The notes beneath the pieces are model-generated. The model saw only the letters and a list, made by a program, of their open reading frames with translations. It did no database searches and was not told the origin of the DNA. A DNA stretch of 8,740 bases from Polyangiaceae bacterium (GTDB taxonomy: Bacteria; Myxococcota; Polyangia; Polyangiales; Polyangiaceae): positions 1 through 8,740 of the forward strand of contig JAICTU010000392.1 of NCBI GenBank assembly GCA_025936205.1, given 5' to 3'. The stretch's first letter is position 1; each line of letters opens with the position of its first letter. Below are positions 2,788-8,189 of the stretch, in pieces. The position numbers and the translations under genes were made by a program.

Positions 2788-3936
2788 CTAGCGCTCGCGA
2801 ACGACCGCCGGCTGAGCAGGCAAGGTGAGTCGAAACACGGCACCGCGGAGGCGCCCATCACGTTCCACGTCGAGAGCGCCCCCCAGCTCGGCCGCAATTT
2901 TTCGCGAGATCGCCAGGCCGAGACCGGTACCCACACCCGGCTTGGTGGTGAAGAAGGGATCGAAAATGCGCTCTCGGTCGGCGTCTGGTACGCCGGACCC
3001 GCTGTCGGCCACCTCCAGGCTGGCCAGTTTGCCATCCGTCCCGATCCGTACAGCGATCGTCGCCTCGACGGGGGGCAGCTTGGAAACAGCGTGGATCGCG
3101 TTGATCACGAGGTTGACGACGATCTGCGAGAGTTGCGTGCGCGAACCACGCACCCGGGGGCTGCCGTTCACCTGCAGGTCGAGCTTGCAAGCCCGACGCA
3201 GCTCCCCTTCGACCAGACGCAGCGACAGGTGGACGACCTCTTCCAGGTCGACGACCTCGCTCTCCCCCGCCGGCCTCACCATGGACAACTGGATGGCAGA
3301 CACGATCTCCGCCACCCGTTCGGCGCCCATGCTCGCGTCCTGCAACGCGGCCCGGATCTCATCCACCTTCGCACCCGCCAGCGGCGCGTCATTGGCCTTC
3401 AGGGCCTCGCTCAGCTCACCCAGCTCCGTCAGTGAATGCTGCAGATTGGTGGTGATCCAGCTGATCGGATTGCGCAGCTCATGACCAATGCCCGCGGCCA
3501 CGATCCCCAGCGCATAGACGCGTTCGGTCTGGACCAGCCTGCGCTCCAGCTCGCGCAGCCGACGCCGCGTCTGATAGCGCTCCAGCGCGTCCGCCACCTC
3601 CGCCTTCAACTCCTCTGGCTCCCACGGCTTCTTCAGGTAGCGGCGGACTCGCCCCCGGTTGATCGCGTCGATGGCCGCGCCGATGTCGGAGTAGGCGGTG
3701 ACCAGCAGACGCACCGTGTCCGGAAACTCGGCCTGCACTTTTTCGAGCAGCTCGACGCCGCTCATTTCCGGCATGCGCTGGTCGCAAACGATCACGCCCA
3801 CCTCGTAAGCGCGCATCAGCTCCAGCGCGACGGCCCCGCTGCGCGCGGTCAGCACGTCGAAATCGTCCCCGCACACGGCCTCGGAGACGAGCAGGTTGCC
3901 CTCCTCGTCGTCGACGAACAGGATCTTGGCGCTCAT
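2788..3936 (-). CDS. Receiver-histidine kinase protein (REC-HisKA-HATPase), PhcR-like architecture
   Basis: This 382-residue cytosolic protein starts with a complete receiver domain (about 4-120): acidic pair D9/D10, phosphoacceptor D52 in VIVCDQRMP, T80 and K103 in LKKPW. A short helical linker leads to a HisKA domain with H152 in GIGHELRNPI, then a HATPase domain with N-box N275/N279, G1 DSGSG at 311-315, the FDPFFTTK lid (325-332) and G2 GTGLGL (336-341). No membrane span or DNA-binding domain is present, so the receiver controls a kinase rather than a promoter. This unusual order is that described for PhcR of Ralstonia. The ATG at 3936 is chosen because GGGAGG lies seven bases before it and because it overlaps the upstream TGA as ATGA, giving translational coupling. 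A GTG at 3951 is in frame but sits just before that Shine-Dalgarno sequence. Its likely phosphate donor is the kinase encoded just upstream; that is inferred from linkage. A generic hybrid-type kinase is the alternative. Confidence 0.9.
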   Translation of the reverse strand: MSAKILFVDDEEGNLLVSEAVCGDDFDVLTARSGAVALELMRAYEVGVIVCDQRMPEMSGVELLEKVQAEFPDTVRLLVTAYSDIGAAIDAINRGRVRRYLKKPWEPEELKAEVADALERYQTRRRLRELERRLVQTERVYALGIVAAGIGHELRNPISWITTNLQHSLTELGELSEALKANDAPLAGAKVDEIRAALQDASMGAERVAEIVSAIQLSMVRPAGESEVVDLEEVVHLSLRLVEGELRRACKLDLQVNGSPRVRGSRTQLSQIVVNLVINAIHAVSKLPPVEATIAVRIGTDGKLASLEVADSGSGVPDADRERIFDPFFTTKPGVGTGLGLAISRKIAAELGGALDVERDGRLRGAVFRLTLPAQPAVVRER

Positions 3937-6634: not shown

Positions 6635-8189
6635 AGCTCAGTGACACGAACGGGTTGACGCCGGTCAGCTCTTCCAGAATTTCGCTCTGCGCGCCCGGCA
6701 CGGCCTTGTGCGCGAGCTCCAGCAGCTGTACGCGCTCGCGATATTCCAGGTACCAGTCGAGGTGGAACTCCATCAGCCAGCGCGTGGGACAGCTGGGCGC
6801 CATGTTGCCGATGTACAGGGTGCCTCCGGGCGCCAGCGTCTGATGCAGCGTGCGGCACAGCGAAACCCAGGTTTGCGGCTGGAGGTAATCGAACAGACCG
6901 CAGGCGTACACGGCGTGGAATCCGCCGGTCACTCGGAGCACAGTCGAGCCCCGCAGCAGATGAGTGATCGAGTCGTGCAGGTGCACGATCCGCACCTTGC
7001 CCTGCCAGCGGGCATTGACGAGCCGGGTGAGCCGCGCGTGGGAGAAGGAGAGCGCGCTGCGGTCCTGATCGAAGAGCACCACCTCCAGCGGCACGTCGAT
7101 GCTGTCGCGCTCCTCCAGCAGCCCAAACACCTCTTCGGCCGGGCCTGCCGCGATCGACAACAGGCGCAAGGGACCCGGCGCGCCGGCATGGGCGTCGAGC
7201 AGCCGCTGCAAGCGGCCTTTGATCAGGTCCTTGCGTGAGCGCACGGCCTCCGCCGCCGGAGTCGACACGAAGGCCAGGTTCATGGCCTTGGCAAACAGCG
7301 TCGGCCCCGAAAAATGGCGGCCATACAGACCGTTCATGACCTCGAAGTCCCCGGGATAGCCCAGGGGCTTGTGGCGGGCGCGATACATCCACGGCGCCAG
7401 CATGAGCAGCGCGTCGAGCTGACGTACCGAGAACTCGCGCAACGGCTCGCGGCTCTCGCGCGGCGCGGCGCGCAGCGCCGAGTCGATCTCCTTCGATGCC
7501 CGTACCACATCGGCGACGAAGCCGTCTCGGATGCGCGCGATCAGCGCCTCGCGCGCGGGCGACTCCTGGTCTCCGTGGACCACGTGCCAGGGCAACGAGC
7601 CTTCCAGCTCGGCGAAGGTGCGCTGCGCGTCTTCCAGAAACAGCCGCAGATCCGCGACCAGAGCCTTGAAGCGCTCCTGACCGGGGACGCGCCAGGGCGC
7701 CTCCGCCATGCTGAGGCCGTGAAACTCGGACTCGGCGATGCGCGCCTTGACGTCGCGCAGCAACAGCACGTCCTCGATGTTCAGCAGCGTATCGACCAGT
7801 GAGACGCCGACCAGCGTGAGCTTGTCGTGCCTGCGCAGGGAGCTCACGCGCACCTGCCCGCGATACGCCTCGTGCCCGTCGAACTGCAGCGCGACTTCGT
7901 CCAGGGTCGTGCCCACGGCTGGAGGTGGATCCAACGGCCACTCGAAGGCAAAGCCGTTCTGTGACACGTCACGGAGCTCGCAACGTTGCAGGTTGCCCTG
8001 CAGCTTGACCTCCACGGCGACTCCAATGGGGCCGAGCTCCGAACGCGGATAGCGCTCCGGGCGGAAATAGATGTCCCGCCCCTGGGCGCCTTCTAGCTCG
8101 GTGTACCGAGCCTTCCGATCGACAGCCGGTGCAGCTGGTGTCGCTGACTCCGGTCTCGAGCCCCCCGATCCCTGCTGACGAGGAGGCAT
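6633..8189 (-). CDS. PilZ domain-SAM methyltransferase fusion, PhcB-like (putative fatty acid methyl ester signal synthase)
   Basis: This 518-residue protein lacks a signal peptide or membrane span. Residues about 1-38 are polar and probably disordered. Residues about 40-150 look like a PilZ domain: the CELRDVSQNGFAF strand carries the D74-x-S76-x-x-G79 motif, but the usual upstream RxxxR is replaced by Arg at 43, 46 and 49, so cyclic di-GMP binding is uncertain. A helical stretch (150-270) precedes a class I methyltransferase fold: LGYPGD (276-281), motif I SIAAGPAEE (345-353), acidic D374/D376 after the next strand, YACGLFDYL (428-436), GGTLYIGNM (455-463) and MEFHLDWYLEYR (473-484). The LGYPGD, GNM and ME..LDWYLEYR signatures are those I know from the PhcB family, which methylates 3-hydroxy fatty acids to make the Ralstonia quorum signal. 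Gene order with the two kinase genes also matches phcBSR. The ATG at 8189 has AAAGGGGAG six bases upstream. A methyltransferase for another carboxyl substrate remains possible. Confidence 0.85.
   Translation of the reverse strand: MPPRQQGSGGSRPESATPAAPAVDRKARYTELEGAQGRDIYFRPERYPRSELGPIGVAVEVKLQGNLQRCELRDVSQNGFAFEWPLDPPPAVGTTLDEVALQFDGHEAYRGQVRVSSLRRHDKLTLVGVSLVDTLLNIEDVLLLRDVKARIAESEFHGLSMAEAPWRVPGQERFKALVADLRLFLEDAQRTFAELEGSLPWHVVHGDQESPAREALIARIRDGFVADVVRASKEIDSALRAAPRESREPLREFSVRQLDALLMLAPWMYRARHKPLGYPGDFEVMNGLYGRHFSGPTLFAKAMNLAFVSTPAAEAVRSRKDLIKGRLQRLLDAHAGAPGPLRLLSIAAGPAEEVFGLLEERDSIDVPLEVVLFDQDRSALSFSHARLTRLVNARWQGKVRIVHLHDSITHLLRGSTVLRVTGGFHAVYACGLFDYLQPQTWVSLCRTLHQTLAPGGTLYIGNMAPSCPTRWLMEFHLDWYLEYRERVQLLELAHKAVPGAQSEILEELTGVNPFVSLS

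Follow-up and report, generated by a model that had tools for sequence, protein, structure and literature searches.

Organisation of the locus

The DNA stretch analysed here (the window) comprises 8,740 nucleotides of contig JAICTU010000392.1 of the Polyangiaceae assembly GCA_025936205.1, and carries on its minus strand a compact cluster of three genes encoding a methyltransferase of the PhcB family, a hybrid sensor kinase and a receiver followed by a histidine kinase core (REC-HK). A sequence-only reading had likened these genes to the phcB-phcS-phcR signalling operon, and their open reading frames (ORFs) were found where it had put them (6633-8189, 3933-6623 and 2788-3951). The methyltransferase (6633..8189, minus strand, 518 amino acids, aa), a putative lipid methyl ester synthase, has a PilZ-like N-terminal domain, and 9 bases lie between its stop codon and the GTG start of the hybrid kinase (3933..6623, minus strand, 896 aa), the putative ester receptor, in which a domain of six transmembrane helices (6TM, or TM domain) precedes the order HK-REC-HK. 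The ORF of the REC-HK is open from a GTG (2788-3951); an ATG at 3936 gives a product of 382 aa and an ATGA overlap with the kinase gene, and is most likely the start (2788..3936, minus strand). The motifs LGYPGD, SIAAGPAEE, GNM and MEFHLDWYLEYR, listed by the same reading together with the gap and the overlap, were all found in the methyltransferase.

By its best relatives the host is a myxobacterium, probably of or near the Polyangiaceae, in keeping with the non-Burkholderiales host proposed earlier. The closest proteins are metagenomic, the names among the matches listed include Polyangiaceae and 'Pseudomonadota' metagenome-assembled genomes (MAGs), and the best genome locus belongs to a Polyangiaceae MAG (73%).

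The methyltransferase and its family

The enzyme consists of a PilZ-like beta domain (residues 57-131; 7797..8021, minus strand) and a class I methyltransferase domain (residues 266-518; 6636..7394, minus strand). The former, left out of the sequence-only reading, was recognised from the PilZ hidden Markov model (HMM), the strands of the structural model at residues 57-131 and the conservation of its motif. The HMM matches lay under their cut-offs (PilZ 21.8 bits against 22.5, Methyltransf_12 20.6 bits against 30). The AlphaFold2 model had a predicted local distance difference test score (pLDDT) of 89.3, and its fold matches in the PDB include C-, O- and N-methyltransferases with many substrates; a PDB sequence search with the enzyme returned two weak, irrelevant matches only, and the NCBIfam scan gave no family. 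Homologues already carry the automatic JGI name 'extracellular factor (EF) 3-hydroxypalmitic acid methyl ester biosynthesis protein'. In the methyltransferase domain KP.GY.GD, G349P350..E353, G431..D434Y435L436 and W479 are invariant. Of the two motif halves that mark a PilZ receptor of cyclic di-GMP (c-di-GMP), RxxxR and [DN]xSxxG, the window enzyme has the second only: D74-x-S76-x-x-G79 (DVSQNG) is canonical, and RxxxR is replaced by a conserved R[PA]xR (53 alignment rows), here R43-P-x-R46 just before the domain. Residue 22 of the Ralstonia-type PhcB of locus L114 falls within the PilZ-like domain, which offers an explanation for the published adaptive mutation R22C of PhcB, reported to lower signal output and not mapped to any known domain (PMC6989110).

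The genome collection gave at least 585 pattern matches, 571 of those listed encoding relatives of the enzyme. In a tree built from 286 columns of the methyltransferase domain in 95 rows, the window enzyme falls into a clade of 35 rows that is almost wholly Myxococcota (support 100/96). The Burkholderiales PhcB clade (14 rows, 100/100) sits inside a clade of 27 rows (100/99) that also contains Verrucomicrobiota, FCPU426 and a single MAG labelled Proteobacteria. Support is weak for 31 inner branches, but the clades named here are starred ones. The rows are 95 of 121 sequences, 26 Burkholderiaceae-family loci (L084-L113 except four) having been dropped as redundant; L-numbers denote the loci of relatives compared in this work, and alignments A1 to A3 were hand-picked subsets of 120 listed proteins and of loci. 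Since the window enzyme falls outside the Burkholderiales PhcB clade, it represents a separate branch, and a transplanted phc operon is ruled out. It did not group with families of different substrate; because the rows include no enzyme of known different substrate, the tree leaves the substrate unsettled.

Two outlying relatives lie on plasmids. A distant PhcB-like methyltransferase domain forms the end of a type I polyketide synthase (L118 6682-9819, Enterobacter ludwigii), and on a Deinococcus plasmid a PhcB-like methyltransferase annotated CheR (L119 1404-4762) is the third gene after a fatty acid desaturase.

The hybrid kinase and the REC-HK

The six spans of the sensor kinase announced by the earlier reading are predicted with high confidence (pLDDT 96.4), but that reading had missed a receiver and a second kinase core in the same protein. 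By HMM the domain order is HisKA-HATPase-REC-HATPase. The 6TM receptor domain (residues 7-206, signature SPYYAG; 6006..6605) is followed by a first kinase core, HK1 (5307..5981; HisKA and HATPase_c, with its boxes intact), with phospho-acceptor His224, by the receiver with Asp553 (4776..5108; Response_reg, 86.6 bits) and by a second core, HK2, with His647 (4008..4775; HMM, motif search and BLAST), all on the minus strand. The third gene was described correctly, its product matching REC plus HATPase by HMM, with Asp52 and His152 (Pfam, motif search and BLAST). The motif search found the H, N, G1 and G2 boxes intact in the three kinase cores, and both receiver aspartates as well.

Conserved positions of the 6TM domain are D42, R58, M99, Y110, G113 and F165. 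Its model superposes on adenylyl cyclases 9, 5 and 8, and more weakly on Rv1625c; as modelled, the domain has the hexahelical fold of adenylyl-cyclase membrane domains. A PDB search with the TM profile A4 gave no match, and Pfam revealed no methyl-accepting domain in the receptor at E up to 0.1. Among 43 TM domains scanned against NCBIfam, 14 families were each weakly matched by one member, and no quorum-sensing model was listed; MASE8 (PF20968) was weakly matched by 6 of the 43 (best E 5.8e-6), whereas the window domain and the remaining members had no match to it at E up to 1.

Linkage of enzyme and receptor

To follow the enzyme into other genomes, the best 80 of the 571 relatives, chosen on the enzyme alone, were surveyed for kinases with a TM domain (TM profile over 15 bits). 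In 67 of them such a TM-kinase was encoded at most 700 bp from the methyltransferase ORF, on its strand in 57 cases and on the opposite one in 10; of 802 random points taken over 6 kb away, 33 had any kinase ORF within 700 bp. A chance neighbourhood is thereby ruled out. Hybrids of TM-HK-REC-HK type occurred in 46 loci, a separate same-strand REC-HK in 43 and both in 34. The gene set recurs in many relatives, and the lack of recurrence that would have refuted the earlier reading was not seen. As for the 13 other loci, in L031, L033, L034 and L057 the sequence stops at a contig or locus border, in L058 a hybrid lies 958 bp from the enzyme, L074 and L075 have kinase fragments, and in L032, L049 and L060 the TM domain is present on a Ser/Thr kinase or a SpoIIE phosphatase; L015, L040 and L054 have no TM-kinase beside the enzyme despite ample flank. 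Moreover, in the family of the Paraburkholderia tropica genome the enzyme is present in 44 of 200 genomes, and the TM domain adjoins it in 30/30 loci examined (split over two frames in L097). In L042, L044, L047, L050, L053, L059, L062, L063 and L078, labelled Alphaproteobacteria, Sneathiella(les) or Proteobacteria, the two genes converge tail to tail, without an operon layout.

The linkage was also examined starting from the receptor. With profile A4 the enzyme lay within 5 kb of 37/40 of the matches listed at 160 bits or more, 6/14 at 120-160, 3/13 at 100-120 and 2/32 at 79-100 bits. Since A4 had been built from TM domains mostly adjoining the enzyme, this test was biased, and it was therefore repeated with the single TM sequence of the window in 282 genomes of the phylum of the L004 genome. 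This gave 31 matches of at least 70 bits, 29 of them with a PhcB-type enzyme within 5 kb and the remaining two at contig ends; two of the 31 are halves of one gene broken over two contigs (G214). Weaker matches were often not beside such an enzyme.

By record labels the enzyme-receptor pair occurs in seven phyla: Myxococcota, Verrucomicrobiota, Acidobacteriota, FCPU426, Methylomirabilota (one locus only, the pair 958 bp apart), Cyanobacteriota and several classes of Pseudomonadota. The window had been described as lying outside the usual setting of the system, a description that we do not retain, as its setting is usual for the family. According to a published survey the phc cluster is restricted in distribution within Betaproteobacteria (PMC10653808), and the enzyme-receptor family is wider than is described there. 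Among the titles and abstract openings listed by literature searches, none deals with Phc in Myxococcota. For PhcS together with adenylyl cyclase, none of the 15 papers listed out of 5,094 has PhcS, a listing too short to establish absence.

Comparison with Phc and other systems

Among the closest known systems is Phc (PhcB-PhcS-PhcR-PhcQ), which serves quorum sensing in Ralstonia, Cupriavidus and Hydrogenophaga. The references for it were the loci of Hydrogenophaga (L071) and L114, the latter with the layout PhcX-gap-PhcB-PhcS-PhcR-PhcQ that has been described for Ralstonia, where the gap is 596 bp (PMC10653808); in L114 it measures 655 bp with the listed start. L114 matches the published residues PhcB R22, PhcS H230 and PhcS L161, the site of the published adaptive mutation L161R falling in its 6TM domain, and no match to the published PhcQ R154 was obtained there with two starts tried.

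The window enzyme is homologous to PhcB (26% over 437 aa in L114, 28% over 431 aa in Hydrogenophaga), with KP.GY.GD, motif I and the C-terminal W..L..R in common. A TM profile of the window type, built from 46 matches of the window domain, none of them from Burkholderiales, scored eight PhcS-type proteins at 88.9-112.7 bits and none of the reversed ORFs. The REC-HK is collinear with the PhcR of L114 (25% over 365 aa), its REC is 42% identical to that of PhcQ over 125 aa, and the gene order methyltransferase, sensor, REC-HK is the same. The differences are as follows: the window kinase is TM-HK-REC-HK and not the plain TM-HK of PhcS; downstream lies a Wzy_C gene in place of phcQ; a receiver gene, encoding HTH-REC (helix-turn-helix plus receiver) proteins in relatives, stands upstream; the half PilZ motif kept in the window was unseen in the two Burkholderiales rows that reach this region; and the enzyme is outside the PhcB orthologue clade. 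Of the Phc equivalence put forward earlier, the homology of enzyme, sensor domain and REC-HK thus holds, while the enzyme clade, the hybrid kinase and the lack of PhcQ depart from it; by sequence, the window resembles Phc in parts and layout yet lies outside the Phc orthologue group. By BLAST the best match to the kinase core of the L114 PhcS is HK2 (30%, residues 634-872), so that PhcS may have arisen from a hybrid by loss of HK1 and REC; alternatively, the hybrid may have gained them.

The two kinases also recall LvrA and LvrB of pathogenic Leptospira, an HK-REC-HK hybrid and a REC-HK of 382 aa; the order of their phosphosites is the same as in the window, and the first passes phosphate to the second (PMC5863495). 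In the window, too, hybrid and REC-HK appear to share one predicted operon, judging by domain order and the ATGA overlap. LvrA, however, is a cytosolic protein that senses through a PAS domain and lacks membrane spans, in contrast to the six membrane helices of the window hybrid, and the word methyltransferase is absent from the main text of that report (PMC5863495). The NCBIfam cut-offs were far from reached (294 of 1200 bits for LvrA, the best match, and 74.6 of 500 bits). CqsS and LqsS, which belong with the CqsA and LqsA synthases, are likewise six-helix membrane receptors without a periplasmic domain, a likeness by description. The ligand of CqsS is lipophilic (PMC4821796).

A putative second synthase type and other outputs

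Several receptors without a PhcB-type enzyme adjoin a large protein in which an alpha/beta-hydrolase domain is fused to a UbiE-like methyltransferase, in most cases preceded by PilZ. This fusion (query L184) is present in 46 of the 282 genomes, and for 44 of its 46 best places a TM match occurs at most 5 kb away. Among the 103 TM matches listed in frames of at least 800 aa, 43 are by a PhcB-type enzyme, 42 by the fusion and 18 by neither; for the 47 listed in shorter frames the numbers are 5, 2 and 40. At E 1e-20, PhcB-type enzymes occur in 59 and the fusion in 46 of the 282 genomes, and both kinds in one genome in 0/282, against 9.6 expected (hypergeometric 6.7e-6, kinship ignored). For a nine-row profile of the hydrolase domain, the only PDB entry matched below E 0.1 was the thioesterase 1tht (E 3.4e-10), and the Ser, Asp and His regions of the domain align with those of 1tht. 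The latter is the myristoyl-ACP thioesterase LuxD. PilZ was matched at E 0.01 or better in 7 of 8 fusion proteins scanned, four exceeding the cut-off and L206 giving no match, and both RxxxR and NxSxxG are present in the fusions of L182 and L184.

In L182-L186, five of the nine fusion-type loci fetched (L182-L186, L190, L206-L208), the receptor gene is faced by a convergent REC-EAL gene, whose EAL was called by similarity to one Rhizobium protein; this arrangement fits, and suggests, a c-di-GMP link to the PilZ domain of the fusion synthase.

The outputs carried by the TM domain vary as well. Beside a PhcB-family methyltransferase it was found on a Ser/Thr kinase (L032, 36 bits; L049, 33 bits), on a SpoIIE phosphatase (L060, 155 bits) and, weakly, on a GGDEF-EAL protein of a Rhizobium plasmid (L003, 22 bits); away from both synthases, on Ser/Thr kinases (L193-L199), GGDEF proteins (L191, L200, L202) and nucleotide cyclases (L201, L203). 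A 16 kb stretch of L181 (3247-18895) encodes three kinases with TM domains together with a REC-HK, a small methyltransferase and a PilZ protein that, judged by eye, resembles GNAT in its C-terminal half; this is perhaps a third synthase type. In L209 (4096-4941) a MerR-type HTH protein with B12-binding domains is encoded upstream of a TM-kinase with neither synthase next to it.

The upstream receiver and the neighbouring genes

Upstream of the methyltransferase, and likewise absent from the earlier reading, the C-terminal receiver part of a response-regulator gene is cut by the window end (8362..8739, minus strand; Response_reg, 66.5 bits). It shares 75% identity with L004 8267-8842, whose N-terminal HTH is weak (18 bits, below the cut-off), and 43-46% with the HTH-REC proteins encoded immediately upstream of the methyltransferase gene in L041, L045, L048, L056 and L069; the four of these that were scanned (L041, L048, L056, L069) matched HTH_17 at 39.5-41.8 bits. 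Because its full-length homologues are HTH(MerR/HTH_17)-REC proteins, the gene is likely, by homology, to encode a DNA-binding output and is the best candidate for the DNA-binding end of the cascade.

Downstream, on the same strand as the REC-HK and 161 bp after it, lies a gene of the Wzy_C/O-antigen ligase family (1178-2626; Pfam), which in tblastn searches of the loci had a 73% identical counterpart in the same place in L004 and none in the others. Positions 1-1041 of the plus strand encode a protein with a long Asp/Ser-rich tail, without a Pfam match and without a match in the loci searched. Scans of 2600-8740 gave one sigma-70-type promoter-like match (shuffles 0.5, standard deviation 0.6) and one terminator-like match (2.9 in shuffles), nothing to build on.

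Discussion

With homology of the parts to Phc, an adjacency conserved in both directions, intact catalytic motifs and the superposition of the receptor model observed here, we think it probable that the cluster pairs the synthase of a lipid methyl ester with its receptor and works like Phc of Ralstonia. The PhcB-family enzyme, possibly under control of its PilZ-like domain, would methylate the carboxyl group of a fatty acid, probably a 3-hydroxy acid, and the ester would partition into membranes and bind inside the six-helix bundle of the hybrid kinase. Binding would alter autophosphorylation at His224 of HK1, from which phosphate might pass to Asp553 of the hybrid and to Asp52 of the REC-HK, by analogy with LvrA and LvrB. 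Both receivers would gate kinase cores, and these would relay phosphate, most simply to the upstream HTH-REC protein, in what may be a response to cell density.

The enzyme could instead make another lipid signal, diffusible or held in the membrane, such as a methylated polyketide, a terpenoid acid or a hydroxy-ketone, which the 6TM domain would sense. The low identity to PhcB, the separate clade, the relative that ends a polyketide synthase (L118) and the wide range of substrates among the fold matches speak for this alternative, but the three motifs in common with PhcB, and a thioesterase-like domain in the other synthase that fits fatty-acyl chemistry, make it rather unlikely. We regard as quite improbable that the enzyme methylates the receptor or the REC-HK inside the cell, in a CheR-like adaptation with no secreted signal. 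A methyltransferase next to a membrane receptor is known from chemotaxis too, and one relative on a plasmid bears the annotation chemotaxis protein CheR; against this, Pfam at E up to 0.1 found no methyl-accepting domain in the receptor, the outputs vary while the enzyme-receptor pair persists, and PhcB and PhcS, the best studied members, make and sense a secreted ester (PMC10653808, PMC11960443). An ordinary LvrAB-like kinase pair with a methyltransferase neighbour foreign to the kinase signal, suggested by the LvrA/LvrB layout and by LvrA as best NCBIfam match, hardly comes into question, as the TM domain is linked in both directions to two different methyltransferase synthases, a linkage that survives the swap of the kinase for other outputs, and LvrA has PAS as its sensor and does not span the membrane (PMC5863495).

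It is conceivable, at somewhat short of an even chance, that these loci belong to a general, undescribed class, in which a six-helix receptor with the fold of adenylyl-cyclase membrane anchors is joined to interchangeable outputs (histidine kinase, hybrid kinase, Ser/Thr kinase, SpoIIE phosphatase, GGDEF/EAL or nucleotide cyclase) and served by one of at least two unrelated, mutually exclusive methyl ester synthases, often PilZ-bearing: the PhcB type or the thioesterase-methyltransferase fusion. If so, synthesis of the signal may be gated by c-di-GMP or a cue like it, and the neighbouring gene would tell to which class the ligand belongs, for a receptor fold whose ligands have been in question from bacteria to mammals. 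The receptor role of adenylyl-cyclase membrane domains is a live question, and a linked synthase would make the ligand directly testable; moreover, the swapped synthases and outputs around one receptor would provide a natural set for building lipid-gated kinases.

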